Positions 3,309 through 25,406 of a DNA stretch of 34,665 nt are shown here, in pieces. Below the pieces are notes generated by a model. It was given only the letters and a program-made list of their open reading frames with translations. It ran no database searches and was not told where the DNA came from. The position numbers and the translations under genes are program-made. Numbering within the stretch: position 1 is the first letter of the stretch; each line of letters begins with the position of its first letter. Source of the DNA: Methanobacteriaceae archaeon (GTDB taxonomy: Archaea; Methanobacteriota; Methanobacteria; Methanobacteriales; Methanobacteriaceae). The stretch lies in assembly GCA_020854915.1 (NCBI GenBank), contig JAHKLT010000062.1, positions 1-34,665 on the forward strand. Direction: 5' to 3'.

Positions 3309-3569
3309 TAAAAAATATTCCTAAACAATAAAATATTGTTTAAAAAATTGCATTAAAAATAAAACTAAATATTTATTAGAGATGAATTTCAAGTATAATA
3401 ATCTATTATCAAAAAACTATTGATTAAACTATTGATTAAATAGCAAGAATGTTTGATAATTGTAAATAATTAAAAATTATTTTTAATTAAATGAAAAGAA
3501 AATATAATCAGAATTAAGAATATTTTTAAAAACATGATTAATTAATTCCTACATATTACCATACCCATA

Positions 3570-13778: not shown

Positions 13779-15070
13779 TTATATCTTTTTTATATACTTT
13801 TTTATCCAATTTTCATAGAAAGATTTTTCACAATATTTTCATTGAATGGTTTTTTAAATATTTGTTTCATGGTTTATATTGATTCAAAGAAGTTATTGTA
13901 CATTTCTTTTTTAATTACTCTCTATAAATCTTCTATTAGATTTAAATCTGGAGAATAATGTGGTAAAAATATAAGATTAATATTTAAAATTTCACAGATT
14001 TCTTCAACTGTTTTAGAAATGGTGTACTCTATAATTATCTAATACTATATTTATTCGTTTTTCTTTAAATTTTCTTTTATTTTTATTTTATTTAATTTTT
14101 CAAGTAGATTTTTTCTTTTATTATTTCTGTTTTCTTTTTTATATGCTTTTTCAATTGATTCTAATGATTTTTGTTTTGATAAGTTAGAGTATAATTTGTC
14201 GTTTATTTTTTTTTACGAAAGTTTTGAAATGTTAATCTTTTTTTATCTAGAAATTTTTTCATTTTTTTCATTTGAAATGTTTGGGTTATTTAAAGTGGTT
14301 TCTAGTTCTTTTTTATTGTTTTTATTTTCTGTGTTTATTATTCTAAATTTTATTAGTATTTTAACAAATTTTATTGCATTATTTGTTTTGTGAAATTCTA
14401 GGTAGTTTTCACAATTAATGCTTTGTATCCCTGTTGCTGTTATTTTAATTTTAAGTAGTTTTTTTATTAGTTTATTATTTTGTTTTGGTAAATATAAGTT
14501 TTTAGTGGTGTTTAGAATATTTTAACATGTTGTTTGATCTAATAATGCTAATCCTGCAGGTTTTTATGTTTATGTTTTTGGTGTTTTTTTTAAGATTGTT
14601 TCAGTATTTTCTGGTTTTTTAGAGTATTTTGTAAATGGTTTACCGTGATTAAAACCTAATTTTTCTCTTACAATGATCCATACTTGTTTTTCAGAGTAAT
14701 CTATATTATATTTCTTTTTTATGATTTTTTGAATTTTTTTAAGAGTGTAATTTTCATTAGAATTAGAAATAATTTCTTTTAACTCTTCTTTTTGTTTATC
14801 TGTTAAATAGCAATTACGTCCACAATTATCATAATTAGGTATTAAACCTTCAAATCCTTTTTCATTATAAAGTTTTAACCATCTAGATCCTGAAGCTCTA
14901 TTTATATTTAAAAATTCAGATGCATCTTTAACTGTTTTACCTTCTTTTAGCATTTTAATAAAAAGTAAACGCTGATAAATCATGTATGACTTTTTATGAT
15001 TAGTTAACAACTCATCAATATCTTTAATATCCAAATGATCTTCAACTGTAATATTTCTTCCACGGGACAT
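13779..15070 (-). pseudogene. IS630-family transposase, multiply interrupted
   Basis: The 5' part (15070-14570) is open and encodes 166 aa with the winged-helix DNA-binding N-terminus of IS630 transposases: SYMIYQRLLFIKMLKEGKTV, ASEFLNINRASGSRWLKLYNE, then LTDKQKEELKEII and IIKKKYNIDYSEKQVWIIV. The DDE half lies in broken frames at 14570-13779. Its last part reads EICEILNINLIFLPHYSPDLNLIED and IKKEMYNNFFESI and finally YENWIKKYIKKI before the stop, and is unmistakable IS630 C-terminus (PHYSPDLNPIE type). Many stops separate the parts, so this is dead. I could not define terminal repeats with certainty: TTTATAT...TTAATTA-like sequences occur near 13750 and on the opposite strand near 15090. 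Confidence 0.75.
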
Positions 15071-15824: not shown

Positions 15825-17399
15825 ATGGTTTTAATGTCACAAAAAATACTTAAAAAATTTGCAAAAAAAGGAATTAATCTTTCACCAGGAGCTTATAAAA
15901 AAATTATAGGTTTAGATGATCCAGTAAACTTTTCTTCTAATTTAATTGTTAAATTAAAAAGTGATAAATATAAAAATAAGGATTTATTATCTATTAAAGA
16001 AGAAATTGTTGATGATTTAATTAATTCTACAAATAATATGGAAGATAAAGCTGATAAGAGTGAAAATGATACATCGTTAAATAATAAAATAGCTAATGAT
16101 TCTAAACCTACAAACAATCCAGAACCAGAAGAGGTTATGAATGTCCCAACTACTAAATTTAAAAGAAATCTCGAAAAAGCTAATGTAAAATATGATTTTA
16201 AGATTATACAAGACACTAGTAAAAAATCATACACTAGTGGAGAGATTGATAATTTAATAGCTTATTTTAAAAGTAGATATGAAAAAATACATAAGATATT
16301 ATCTAAGCGACCTGAACTTAAAACTTGTCAAAAAATTTCTGAAATTGAAGAAGGTCAAAATAGTTTAAACCTTATTTTAATGGTTAAAGATATTAGAACT
16401 ACTAAAAATGGGCATAAATTAATTGAATTTGAAGATGAAACTGGTGAAATACCAATTTTATTTAGTAATAAAGATGAAGAAATTTTTAAAGGAGCTGAAA
16501 GATTAGTTAAAGATGAAGTTGTTGGTATTGTTGCTGAGAAAAATGGGGATCTTGCAATAGCTAAAAGTATTATTCATCCAGATATTCATAGAATTTCTCA
16601 AAAGTCTATGGATTTTGGAATTGTTTTTTTATCAGATATTCATGTTGGTAGTTTAACATTCTTAGAAGATTCTTTTTTAAAATTTGTTGATTGGATTAAT
16701 TGTGAAACTGGAAATGATGAACAGTTAGAAATAGCAAATAGTATTAAATATTTAATTATTGGTGGAGATATTGTTGATGGCGTTGGTATATATCCAAATC
16801 AGGAAAAAGAATTAGCTATTAAAGATGTTACTCAACAATATGATGAAGCTGCACGTTTACTTGGTAATATTAGAAGTGATATTAAAATAATTATTGCTCC
16901 TGGAAACCACGATGCATCTAGAGTTGCAGAGCCACAACCAGCTGTTCCTGAAAAATATGCAAAATCATTGTATGAATTAGATAATGTTGAATTTATTAGT
17001 AATCCTGGTGTAGTTTCTCTAGAAGGTATTAATGTATTGATTTATCATGGCCGTAGTTTTGATGATATGAATATGAGTATTAAAGGTTTTTCACATGATA
17101 AAAATGATATTATAATGGAAGAACTTCTTAAAAAAAGACATTTAGCTCCTATTTATGGTGAGAGAACTCCTCTTGCATCTGAACTTGAAGATTATTTGGT
17201 TATTGATGAGGTTCCTGATATTTTACATACTGGCCATGTTCACATTAATAGATATAAAAAATACAATGGTGTTCATTTAATTAATTCTGGAACTTTTCAA
17301 ACACAAACAGAGTTTCAAAAAATTTATAATATTGTTCCAACACCAGGAGAAGTTCCTGTTTTATATAAAGGAAAATATAAATTGCTTAAATTTAATTAA
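15825..17399 (+). CDS. dp1: DNA polymerase D (PolII) small subunit, exonuclease DP1
   Basis: This is the small subunit of euryarchaeal replicative polymerase D, carrying a Mre11-like 3'-5' proofreading exonuclease and an OB fold. The protein is 524 aa. Residues 1-100 are a variable N-terminal domain, then an OB fold (about 180-250, [25 protein letters not shown]), then the calcineurin-like phosphoesterase with DIHVG (about 273), [25 protein letters not shown] and [10 protein letters not shown] and the usual C-terminal [14 protein letters not shown], where the metal ligands are. No strong Shine-Dalgarno is visible; starts are possible at 15825 or 15834 (MSQKILKKF). It is near the putative origin. 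The catalytic DP2 partner is not in the window. Confidence 0.93.
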
Positions 17400-18413: not shown

Positions 18414-19423
18414 TTTTTAGATATAGCAATAGCTATTGTAACACCATCAAATGCTTTTTTTTTATAAATTAATTTTGAATCAAATCCAGCTACTATTAAT
18501 GCAGATTGTTCACTAACACCATTAATTCCGAAATTAGATTTAACAAATTTAGAAATAGAACAATCTTTTGATTTAAATAATTTTAATTTTTCAATATCAA
18601 CTATTTTTAAAGGTATATTGAGATTATAAGATATATCTATAATTCCTTTTTCATTTTTCTTCATTTCACCAGTTGCAATATAATTAATCCTTTCAATTGG
18701 TAAATTTAAATCATTAATAGCTATTTTTAACCCTTTTAATATTTCATTATGATTTTTACCTTTTCTACAACCTATTCCCACTACTAAATCTCTTTCTTTA
18801 ATTATTATTTCATGATTATTTACTTTTGCTAAAATTTCATTTTTAGAAAGCTTATCATCGTATTTGATGAGGTATGTTTCAAGTGTATTTTTCTCAATAA
18901 AATCAATTATATAATCTAATTTATTGTTTCTATTAAAAAATAATTCAATCATTTCACCATTTAAAATAGCTTTATTAAAATATAAAATACTTTTAGGATT
19001 TAATATTTTTAAATAAAATAAATTACTTAAATAATCAATAGCTATTTTTTGATTAACATCAGTGGAAGTAGTTATAACTTCTTGTGTATCTAATAATCCA
19101 GCTATTTTTTTTGAAAATTTATTTGCACCGCCAATATGGCCTGATAATAAACTTATAACAAATTCTCCATTTTCATCTAAGTTTAATATTCCAGGATCTT
19201 TTAATTTTGAATCAATGAGTTTAGCTATTGATCTAATTACAATACCACTAGCCATAATAGCTATTATCATATCATATTCAAAAAAAGCTATTTTAAAATT
19301 CTTTTTAACATCTTTATAAAAAATATCTGTTTTTATAATTGTTGAATCATTATCTAAATAGTTTTTAATTTTATTAGATAATTTCAAACCTTTTTCTGTA
19401 AGTGAAATAATAGCTACCTTCAT
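18410..19423 (-). CDS. cbiG: Cobalt-precorrin-5A hydrolase
   Basis: CbiG opens the delta-lactone of cobalt-precorrin-5A, releasing acetaldehyde in anaerobic cobalamin synthesis. The 337-aa protein has the N-terminal domain (MKVAIISLTEKGLKLSNKI, IIAIMASGIVIRSIA near 60, FVISLLSGHIGGANKF near 95), a middle domain, and the CobE-like C-terminal domain (VVGIGCRKGKNHNEIL near 215, NGVSEQSALIVAG near 300). It begins in an ATGA overlap with the stop of cbiB and is therefore translationally coupled. The two cobalamin genes face the origin-proximal side. The 3' end overlaps the UPF0147 stop. Confidence 0.92.
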   Translation of the reverse strand: MKVAIISLTEKGLKLSNKIKNYLDNDSTIIKTDIFYKDVKKNFKIAFFEYDMIIAIMASGIVIRSIAKLIDSKLKDPGILNLDENGEFVISLLSGHIGGANKFSKKIAGLLDTQEVITTSTDVNQKIAIDYLSNLFYLKILNPKSILYFNKAILNGEMIELFFNRNNKLDYIIDFIEKNTLETYLIKYDDKLSKNEILAKVNNHEIIIKERDLVVGIGCRKGKNHNEILKGLKIAINDLNLPIERINYIATGEMKKNEKGIIDISYNLNIPLKIVDIEKLKLFKSKDCSISKFVKSNFGINGVSEQSALIVAGFDSKLIYKKKAFDGVTIAIAISKN

Positions 19424-20424: not shown

Positions 20425-20497
20425 TAAATATAATTATATACATTAAATCATATATCTATTTTTAAATTTTATTATTGAATTTTATTTGTGTGAAAAA

Positions 20498-20983
20498 ATG
20501 ATTACAGAAGAAACAGTACAAAAATGGCTAATTGACGAATCTTTATTTAAAGAAAAATTACAGGATGAAAACTCTAACTTTCATTATATAATCAATTATC
20601 CTGATAATCATATTATGGATGTTATTCAACCTGTTGGAAAACCAGACTTAATAATAATTGGATGTGCAACTGAAATAGGAGAAGATCACAGAAATTTGAT
20701 GAGAAAAGCAAAAAATGAAGTTAAAGAAGGTTTTGTTTGGGATGTTAGATTTATATTAAATAATTTCTTACTTGATTTTAATTTACAAATTGAAAACAAT
20801 GAACTTAAGCATTTTGTAATAACAGAAGAAATTTTTGAAGATGGTCTAACAAAGGATGTTTTAATTAGATCAATTAAAAAAGTCTTTAAAGCAAAACTTC
20901 AATGTATGTGGGGACTTGAAAAAACATTTGGAATTGTTAATGTAGATATTAATAAAAATGATGATAATAATATGTTTGTTTAA
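20498..20983 (+). CDS. DUF2299 family protein
   Basis: This 161-aa protein matches archaeal DUF2299, with KWLIDESLFKEKLQDENSNFHYIINYP, VIQPVGKPDLIIIG and LWDVRF-like VWDVRFILNNFLLDF. The fold is thought to resemble a type III secretion chaperone-like alpha/beta structure (recall), with no assigned function. The start is ATG 20498 with GTGTGA upstream; the TTG 12 bp upstream is less likely. It lies between cbiB and the origin region, in the same position relative to orc1/cdc6 as in related Methanobacteriales (from memory). Confidence 0.85.
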   Translation: MITEETVQKWLIDESLFKEKLQDENSNFHYIINYPDNHIMDVIQPVGKPDLIIIGCATEIGEDHRNLMRKAKNEVKEGFVWDVRFILNNFLLDFNLQIENNELKHFVITEEIFEDGLTKDVLIRSIKKVFKAKLQCMWGLEKTFGIVNVDINKNDDNNMFV

Positions 20984-21018
20984 ATAAAACAACTATTTTT
21001 TATTTTTTTTATTTTTAG

Positions 21019-21045
21019 AGTGAGAGAGGTATATTTCAAGTGAAA
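21019..21045 (-). promoter_or_regulatory. ORB-like box 1 (leftward)
   Basis: On the minus strand: core TTTCACTTGAAA, then TATACCTCTCTCACTC. The core matches TTTACACTTGAAA except for one base and the extension matches boxes 3 and 4. Confidence 0.7.
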
Positions 21046-21071
21046 GCTTTTTTCATAACCTGAAAGAATGA

Positions 21072-21093
21072 AGAGATATATTTCATATGTAAA
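21072..21093 (-). promoter_or_regulatory. ORB-like box 2, degenerate (leftward)
   Basis: On the minus strand: TTTACATATGAAA followed by TATATCTCT. It keeps most of the mini-ORB, with CT changed to TA in the centre, and the extension differs by one base. Confidence 0.5.
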
Positions 21094-21186
21094 TTAATTG
21101 AAATTTAGCTCTTATTATTTTTTTAAAAATCATCATTTAAACTTTTTATTTTTAAATTCAAGGATTTTAAATAATCTTTCATAAAA

Positions 21187-21210
21187 TTTTACACTTGAAA
21201 TATACCTCTT
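21187..21210 (+). promoter_or_regulatory. ORB box 3 (rightward)
   Basis: TTTTACACTTGAAA followed by TATACCTCTT. The mini-ORB core is a perfect match, with the extension seen in the other boxes. Confidence 0.8.
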
Positions 21211-21236
21211 GATTTTACTTTTTCACAAATTTTTAA

Positions 21237-21263
21237 TTCACTTGAAACATACCTCTCACTCTC
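21237..21263 (+). promoter_or_regulatory. ORB box 4 (rightward)
   Basis: TTCACTTGAAACATACCTCT followed by CACTCTC. It is very close to box 1 in sequence but reads in the opposite direction. Confidence 0.75.
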
Positions 21264-21633
21264 TTTATCATATTTTTAAAAGTTTAATTTTTTAAATAAA
21301 AATATTGTTTAAAACCTTTATTTATTGATTTTAAACTAGTATTAGTAATTTATTTTTAATAAATTTTTATACAGTTGAAAAATTACTTTTTTCATTTGAA
21401 ATTTTAATAAAAATATAAAAAATATTAATTAATGTTTTTTTTAAAAAAATTTATAAATGTATTATTTAAGAATATACATTTAAATTATACTTATAATCCA
21501 ATAAAACATCTTAGTATCAATTATTTTTTAATTTAATTAATTATAATTAAAATAATATTTTTTTATTTCAAATAATTTAATACTAATTTAATATTTTGTA
21601 ATAAATACTTTTATTTATGCTGATAAAAATAAT

Positions 21634-21646
21634 ATTACACTGGAAA
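21634..21646 (+). promoter_or_regulatory. Degenerate mini-ORB near orc1/cdc6
   Basis: ATTACACTGGAAA differs from TTTACACTTGAAA at two positions. It sits 78 bp before the Orc1/Cdc6 start. Confidence 0.45.
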
Positions 21647-21692
21647 TAAAACATAAGTTTATTACTATAAAATTATTTTTAAATTAATAAAA

Positions 21693-21705
21693 TTTACACT
21701 TGAAA
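21693..21705 (+). promoter_or_regulatory. Mini-ORB directly before orc1/cdc6
   Basis: A perfect TTTACACTTGAAA ends 19 bp before the start codon of orc1/cdc6. Binding here could also repress the gene's own transcription (inference). Confidence 0.7.
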
Positions 21706-21723
21706 CTATTACAAAGTGATTAA

Positions 21724-22875
21724 ATGGGAAATATTTTTGACAATTTAGAAGGAGAAGAATCAGTTTTTGAAGATAAAACACCACTGGATCATAGATTTTT
21801 ACCAGAGAAATTACCTCATAGAGACGAACAAATTACTGAAATAGCTAAACACTGGATTGAAGCATTAAATAATGTAACACCTTCTGATGTTACTATTTAT
21901 GGTAAAACTGGAACAGGAAAAACTGCAGCTGCTAAATTTGCAAGATCACAATTAAAAGAAGCAGCTCAAAATAAAAATGTGTTTATTAAAGTAGAATATA
22001 TTAGATGTACAGATTATACTACTGAATATCAGGTTATAGCTCAATTATGTCAGAGACTTGGAAGAGATGTACCAAATAGAGGCTGGACAAAGGGGGAAAT
22101 TATTAATACATTTAGAAATATCTTTAAACAAAATTCTTTTGGAAATAAACTTATTTTAATTGTAATATTAGATGAGATAGATATTTTGCTTGAAAAAGAT
22201 GGTGATGGAATACTTTATACATTAACTAGAACAGAAAATGTTTCTATTTTATCAATAAGTAATTATATTGATTTTAAAAAATTTATTAAACCTCGTGTAA
22301 TGAGCAGTTTAAGGGATAAAGAAATAGTATTTCCTCCATATGTAGCAAGTCAATTAGCTGATATCTTAGAAGAACGTGCAAAACTATCATTTAAAGATAA
22401 TGTACTGCATAATGATGTTATTTTATTATGTGCAGCTATGGCCGCTAAAGAAGAAGGAGATGCAAGATATGCTTTGGATCTTTTACGTACTGCAGGAGAA
22501 ATTGCAGATGATGAAGGATCAAACGAAATTTTAGGGGAATATGTAAGAACTGCAAAAGATAAAATTGAACACAATAAAATTACTGATATTATTATTACAC
22601 TACCAACACAACAACAAAGAGTTTTAGAAGCATTACTTAAGCTTACTCAATCTAGTGAAGAAATAACTTCTGGAAAATTGTATGATACATATAAAGAAGT
22701 TTCAAAAGGAGATTCTGTAACTTATAGAAGAATTTTTGATTTTATAAATGAACTTGAAATGCTTGGAATAATTTCAACAAATACAATATCACGTGGTAGA
22801 GGAAAAGGAAGAACAAATATAATATCCTTGCAATGTGATACAAGATTACTTGAAACTACATTATATTCTATTTAA
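21724..22875 (+). CDS. cdc6: Orc1/Cdc6 replication initiator
   Basis: This AAA+ protein recognises the origin and loads the MCM helicase. The 383-aa protein has Walker A GKTGTGKT (about residues 60-67), Walker B VILDEID (about 147-153), a sensor 1 region (SILSISNY), a sensor 2 region around [18 protein letters not shown], and a C-terminal winged helix ([35 protein letters not shown]). The start is ATG preceded by GTGATT at the proper distance. It lies beside the ORB cluster, which is the usual arrangement for an archaeal origin. It is a normal-length Orc1-1-type protein, and no second paralogue is in the window. Confidence 0.95.
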
Positions 22876-25129: not shown

Positions 25130-25336
25130 ATGTCTAATATTCCTAAGGCTCCTGTTGGGAGAATAATGAAGGAAGCTGGCGCTGAGAGAATTAGCGAGGA
25201 TGCAAAAGATGAATTAACTATGTATCTTGAAGAAGTAGCAGAAAAAGTTACTATCGAAGCTAAAAAAGCAGCTGAATTTGCTAAACGTAAAACCATTAAA
25301 GCTGAAGATATTAAATTAGCTATTAAAAATCTTTAA
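25130..25336 (+). CDS. Archaeal histone (HMf family)
   Basis: This 68-aa histone-fold protein wraps DNA in archaeal nucleosomes. It has the three-helix fold: [26 protein letters not shown], then a long helix [19 protein letters not shown], then the [16 protein letters not shown] end typical of HMfA/HMfB. The start is ATG 25130, not the in-frame GTG 9 bp earlier, because GGAGTGAT is directly upstream. It is a single gene facing away from hisG, with a promoter at about 25042 and a clear hairpin terminator after it. Length is normal. Confidence 0.95.
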
Positions 25337-25381: not shown

Positions 25382-25406
25382 TTTTACACTTGAAATACAT
25401 CTCTTT
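25382..25406 (+). promoter_or_regulatory. Outlying ORB-like box
   Basis: TTTTACACTTGAAATACATC followed by TCTTT matches the mini-ORB core perfectly and the extension partly. It lies about 3.7 kb downstream of the origin region, between the histone and gatA genes. Confidence 0.6.

Follow-up and report, generated by a model that had tools for sequence, protein, structure and literature searches.

Archaeal ORBs are each bound by Orc1 as an oriented monomer, and opposed ORBs put two MCMs between them (PMC6742236; PMC12141716). In fact, the ORBs that flank a DUE are often of opposite polarity, an arrangement that is thought to load two MCMs (PMC6742236). In Sulfolobus oriC1, for instance, inverted ORBs surround the unwinding region and the initiator is of the Orc1-1 type, as at the locus described here; regarding the ucm/UBP element of Sulfolobus, Desulfurococcales and Sulfolobales are reported to have acquired the ubp gene recently (PMC12141716; PMC6742236). 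Additionally, the AAA+ domain is known to contact a G-string in other archaea, and the published passages on Haloarcula hispanica oriC1 describe two inverted ORBs (four are found here) around an AT-rich region, with a base-biased element at the end of each ORB (PMC3936714). Where our locus carries C and T, the same strand of the halophile has a G-string, and the mutated elements given in those passages, CCCCCC (I) and GGGGGGGG (II), fit outward-pointing elements like those found here, if I is the left one (PMC3936714).

Within the order, oriC of M. ruminantium M1, which has the same family and gene neighbour as our locus, was placed immediately upstream of cdc6-1 through GC skew and homology; the published passages give this position and no box layout (PMC2812497). 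An origin with mini-ORBs has been reported in Methanothermobacter thermautotrophicus (Capaldi and Berger 2004; Majernik and Chong 2008; both as related in PMC4010727 and PMC5333045), and the Methanobacteriaceae ORB motif of Ori-Finder 2, TT[TA]CACTTGAAAT[GTA]T[CT][CG]TC, published in 2014, has the core found here followed by a C/T-rich tail (PMC4164010). However, the printed tail is one base shorter than ours, and it merges tails that are box-specific at our locus, namely long in boxes A and D and CTTSA in B and C. The location of the origin, its kind and a family motif with such a tail are, thus, already known (PMC2812497, in its published passages; PMC4164010).

The locus analysed here is a 740-bp gap (20984-21723) in the window, as we call the whole 34,665-nucleotide stretch under analysis. 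It lies between a DUF2299 gene and orc1/cdc6-1 and lacks any ORF of at least 80 aa, and the first-pass annotation was right in describing it as a gene-free, AT-rich region beside orc1/cdc6; intergenic DNA adjoining this gene is a characteristic of archaeal oriC1-type (Orc1/ORB) origins. The product of the gene, whose best structural neighbours are 2qby_A (Cdc6 homolog 1) and 2v1u_A, is an Orc1-1-type initiator, nearest to crystallised Orc1-1. We consider that this gap is very probably the oriC of the Methanobrevibacter-group chromosome. Less than 6 kb from it, there are also an archaeal histone gene (25130-25336) and, at 15825-17399, a gene whose product has a DNA polymerase alpha/epsilon subunit B domain and is probably the small subunit of polymerase D. 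The window also contains a short ORF on the minus strand (14570-15070), with helix-turn-helix domains resembling a transposase N-terminus, which is flanked by conserved neighbours and whose orthologue is absent from the corresponding stretch of a closed relative, G015.

Table 1. Boxes, genes and candidate functional elements in and around the gap (window coordinates).
Feature	Position	Core	Strand	Sequence or basis	Score or remark
Solitary extended ORB, 3' side of thiL	3378..3399		-		20.2 bits
Solitary extended box inside cbiG coding sequence	18868..18889		-		22.2 bits
DUF2299 gene	20486-20983		+		left neighbour of gap
Box A, outer left ORB	21017..21046	21034-21046	-	CTTTCACTTGAAATATACCTCTCTCACTC	28.9 bits
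Box B, inner left ORB	21071..21093	21081-21093	-	TTTACATATGAAATATATCTCTTCATTC	19.1 bits
B*, inward-reading half-site overlapping B	21091..21113		+		degenerate in window: -5.1
AT-rich spacer between opposed pairs, candidate helicase-loading and unwinding site	21094..21187		.	geometry	
Box C, inner right ORB	21188..21210	21188-21200	+	TTTACACTTGAAATATACCTCTTGATT	34.1 bits
Box D, outer right ORB	21235..21264	21235-21247	+	AATTCACTTGAAACATACCTCTCACTCTC	23.5 bits
E/E', core-only box pair	21368-21380, 21389-21401		+	core match	21 bp apart
Least stable DNA of gap, alternative candidate unwinding element	21400..21620		.	nearest-neighbour energy	
F1, promoter-proximal box	21634..21646		+	ATTACACTGGAAA	
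F2	21693..21705		+	exact core TTTACACTTGAAA	ends 18 bp before orc1 start codon
orc1/cdc6-1 initiator gene	21724..22875		+	Pfam: AAA+, Cdc6 lid, winged helix	
Solitary extended ORB, between histone gene and gatA	25383..25405		+		33.5 bits; about 3.5 kb from gap

As in other oriC1-type origins, several ORB repeats in opposed orientation are present, with the order A(-)B(-)C(+)D(+); this agrees with the first-pass annotation, which had claimed at least four boxes, the first two leftward and the others rightward. It had also called them good boxes on a common core, which is correct for their orientation and extension, but within the quartet the exact core, TTTACACTTGAAA, is found only in C, with two mismatches in A and B and three in D. 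Followed by an A[CT][CG]TCT-type tail, this core is that of the Methanobacteriales ORB motif. A and D both carry a long pyrimidine extension (CCTCTCTCACTCT on the minus strand in the case of A), and together they form a 28-nt inverted repeat that is 89% identical. The GGGG(T) that follows GAAAN4 on the core strand of G-string ORBs is absent from the boxes, where this position reads CCTC or YGTC. The equal spacing of the two pairs in the window (47 bp both for A-B and for C-D), the extra plus-strand boxes in the gap and the solitary extended boxes outside it had been overlooked.

With up to three mismatches, the core alone is matched 75 times in the window against 58.6 ± 7.3 expected, which is near chance in AT-rich DNA; consequently, significance rests on the extension, and core-only matching was dropped as evidence. 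By contrast, the core plus the tail CACTTGAAATATACCTCT, with the same tolerance, is found 6 times where 0.05 are expected (0 of 100 shuffles), so the extension that the boxes were said to share is real. In the 1.66-Mb host assembly, the strict extended pattern has four sites, three of which lie in the gap, and the reversed control has none.

The homologous gap of related organisms, whose comparison had been suggested as a check, supports this picture. Relatives of orc1 were collected with their flanks from 80 genome contigs and two closed genomes were added later, the quartet being counted in 80 sequences (77 loci, the window and the two closed genomes). To search the upstream regions, we built a profile from 273 sites picked by their core only; its columns 16-22, corresponding to the tail, are nevertheless informative though unused for selection. 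The quartet, in the same order and polarity, was found upstream of orc1 in 58 of the 80 sequences, and in none of 800 shuffled ones. Among these 58 quartets, A and B are 47 bp apart in 50 cases, 48 bp in seven and 49 bp in one, and C and D are 47 bp apart in 19 cases, 48 bp in 34 and 49 bp in five, while the distance from B to C varies from 36 to 246 (most commonly 114). As the pair spacings are nearly fixed and the B-C distance is variable, it is the geometry that has been kept, not the surrounding sequence. The outer boxes, A and D, have a long C/T tract, and the inner ones a short tail ending in CTTCA or CTTGA; the spacer between the opposed pairs has a mean AT content of 0.81 in the relatives. 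Additionally, at the position of B*, 44 of the 58 quartets score at least 8 bits, compared with 3.2% at random places, and this half-site, clear in most relatives, has decayed in the window. The sequences without a quartet, about one quarter, are Methanosphaera, Methanobacterium-like organisms, truncated contigs and a few Methanobrevibacter-group genomes.

Other members of the order have larger arrays. In Methanosphaera there are four to six leftward boxes and a strong rightward one, mostly 50-56 bp apart, and at the Methanobacterium-like loci L039 and L044 three to six boxes read leftward and four or five rightward. Five genomes from another family of the order, probably Methanothermobacter, carry opposed arrays of about 5-7 boxes per side upstream of orc1, 49-56 bp apart, as compared with 2 + 2 at 47 bp here, and they share core, extension and polarity with the Methanobrevibacter quartet. 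In a closed 2,937,203-bp genome, presumably that of M. ruminantium M1, the pattern finds a single leftward box and a rightward pair spaced by 47 bp. In every array with two visible arms, the tails point outward and the cores toward the central spacer, so the quartet looks like a reduced, spacing-locked form of an order-wide design. The proposal that the extension goes beyond the mini-ORB of Methanothermobacter is not supported: the extension is present in the arrays of that other family and is not new to the Methanobrevibacter group, a similar motif having also been published (PMC4164010).

The host genome is a 75-contig draft, and skew was read in one closed relative, G015 (1,853,160 bp), where the boxes span 1,269,944-1,270,542 and orc1 is found at 1,268,482-1,269,630. 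In this genome, the keto and AT disparities have their maxima at 1,270,583 and 1,270,461, respectively, where the homologous gap has its outer border, but the GC-skew minimum (1,255,475) is 14 kb away. Thus, the skew analysis that had been proposed as a check is favourable in its keto and AT extremes and unfavourable in its GC minimum, and the switch in strand composition that is typical of oriC1-type origins is seen at the locus in a single closed relative. The cumulative GC skew of G015 turns near 1,851,000, so that the two arms starting at the origin differ in length (about 0.58 and 1.27 Mb).

The extended boxes, the conservation of the quartet, the shuffles, the skew extremes of G015 and the Orc1-1-type neighbour all lead to reading the gap as oriC, as do the position reported in the published passages on M. 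ruminantium (PMC2812497) and the opposed ORBs described at the DUE of other archaea (PMC6742236). Against this reading we count the displaced GC minimum, the location of the least stable DNA outside the opposed pairs, the poor cores of B and D, the decay of B* and the existence of quartet-free relatives. In any case, we are highly confident that the best explanation of the whole is an oriC, at which Orc1/Cdc6-1 would bind boxes A-D and two MCMs would be loaded at the central spacer.

From the sequence, polarity, spacing and conservation of the boxes, the identity of the initiator and the strand-bias switch of the relative, all of them observed, we infer protein binding, helicase loading, start points and autoregulation as follows. 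Orc1/Cdc6-1, made from the adjacent gene, would bind boxes A-D as polar monomers, with its winged helix on the quasi-palindromic core, while its AAA+ part would contact the C/T-rich element on the outward side, whose place is that of the G-string in other archaeal ORBs. As this position reads CCTC or YGTC here, the contact to the C/T-rich element is proposed by analogy, as an equivalent of the G-string contact. Since the pairs face apart, the core sides of B and C are directed toward the AT-rich spacer, which would receive two oppositely oriented MCM helicases, and replication would proceed bidirectionally from there.

An origin that is unwound and loaded elsewhere in the gap, at 21400-21620, between E/E' and F1/F2 and with A-D as a one-sided anchor, is a rival reading that we consider less likely. 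The spacer is AT-rich, yet this stretch, to the right of all four boxes, is less stable, with a nearest-neighbour energy among the lowest 0.1-5% of the window; accordingly, of the sequence of opposed arrays, spacer and AT-rich section outlined in the first-pass annotation, the opposed pairs and the AT-rich spacer stand, while the least stable DNA lies at 21400-21620. Moreover, E/E' and F-type boxes recur in relatives: many have a box pair 20-21 bp apart at about -310/-290, and TTAACACTGGAAATTATACT, comparable to F1, is found at about -55 to -126 (the nearest counterpart of the F1/F2 pair is that of L224, at -126/-69); the palindrome beside E' is present in just 4 of the 80 sequences. However, all boxes to the right of D read in the same direction, so this stretch is without a flanking opposed pair, whereas opposed boxes round a central spacer are common to the family and to the five genomes of the other one. 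Because of this geometry, we prefer 21094-21187 as the loading site.

The proximity of F1 and F2 to the start codon suggests autoregulation of orc1, F2 being a possible autoregulatory site, and both may allow the initiator to repress its own gene. It might even be argued that all boxes are mainly operators, for Orc1/Cdc6 or another factor, controlling orc1 transcription, and that replication begins elsewhere, as two boxes are less than 90 bp from the start codon and promoter-proximal boxes recur in relatives. We find this very improbable, since the start codon is separated from the quartet, with its mirrored pairs, by 470-690 bp, farther upstream than an archaeal operator requires, and the strand bias of the closed relative switches at the gap. 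The near-chance frequency of the core and the near-identical repeats around some exact cores elsewhere might suggest that the boxes arose by chance in AT-rich DNA or belong to a mobile repeat, but this reading, of negligible probability, is excluded by the shuffles, by the statistics of the extension and by a geometry conserved across the clade. Such exact TTTACACTTGAAA cores occur with near-identical surroundings on three G000 contigs (C1:7091, C2:5011 and C3:47116; L001-L003), just upstream of an ORF start on C2, and on C1 and C3 only 71 bp follow the core before the contig end; they were set aside as origin evidence, being probably part of a mobile element.

Extended boxes are also found outside the gap. 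The gatA gene has a neighbouring box in G011, G013 and G015 as well as in the window, where the box is on the opposite side of this gene. Similarly, both G015 and G011 have a box about 0.5 kb 3' of their thiL orthologue, which in G011 is inside an extra ORF. The box in cbiG, at an equal offset in G015, may merely reflect protein conservation, as may some other boxes inside genes. When one mismatch is allowed, the extended pattern has 55 sites outside the orc1 gap in 11 closed genomes. Of these, 16 are at a distance of 2-30 kb from the origin, where 1.35 would be expected, an enrichment whose computed probability is too strong, given the relatedness of the genomes and the location of some sites inside genes; in the host draft, three of the five solitary sites of this kind are on this contig. 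It is possible that solitary boxes titrate Orc1, by analogy with Haloarcula, where an ORB-rich region restrains oriC2 (PMC3936714). Second clusters of two or three same-strand extended boxes exist in G010 (C1:603410-603505; L219) and G016 (C1:271704-271820; L220), with an orc1-2 paralogue at a distance of about 3.5 kb, and we examined whether they might be second origins; the host contig with its own orc1-2 paralogue is without such boxes.

In the literature searched, which covered few subscription journals and, for the Methanothermobacter originals, secondary sources, we found no description of the exact layout, of its near-invariant spacing or of the solitary boxes, nor of a control zone of such boxes round an origin. 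Possibly, then, the minimal 2+2 layout with 47-48 bp spacing, the inward half-site at B and the near-origin solitary boxes are undescribed. Tentatively, and with more doubt than conviction, we suggest that Methanobrevibacter has a minimal, spacing-locked origin with two Orc1 pairs at about 47 bp, ringed within about 30 kb by solitary boxes that would titrate or park Orc1. A spacing of about 47 bp corresponds to roughly four and a half helical turns, and the approximately 52 bp of the relatives to roughly five.

The origin of a draft Methanobrevibacter-group genome is narrowed here to one 740-bp gap; otherwise, the origin and its position are as the field would expect. The compact four-box layout, near-invariant over many gut and termite methanogens, could serve to test Orc1 spacing and polarity in two-helicase loading, and sister groups that differ in this spacing (47-48 against about 52 bp) offer a natural experiment on the geometry of the initiator.
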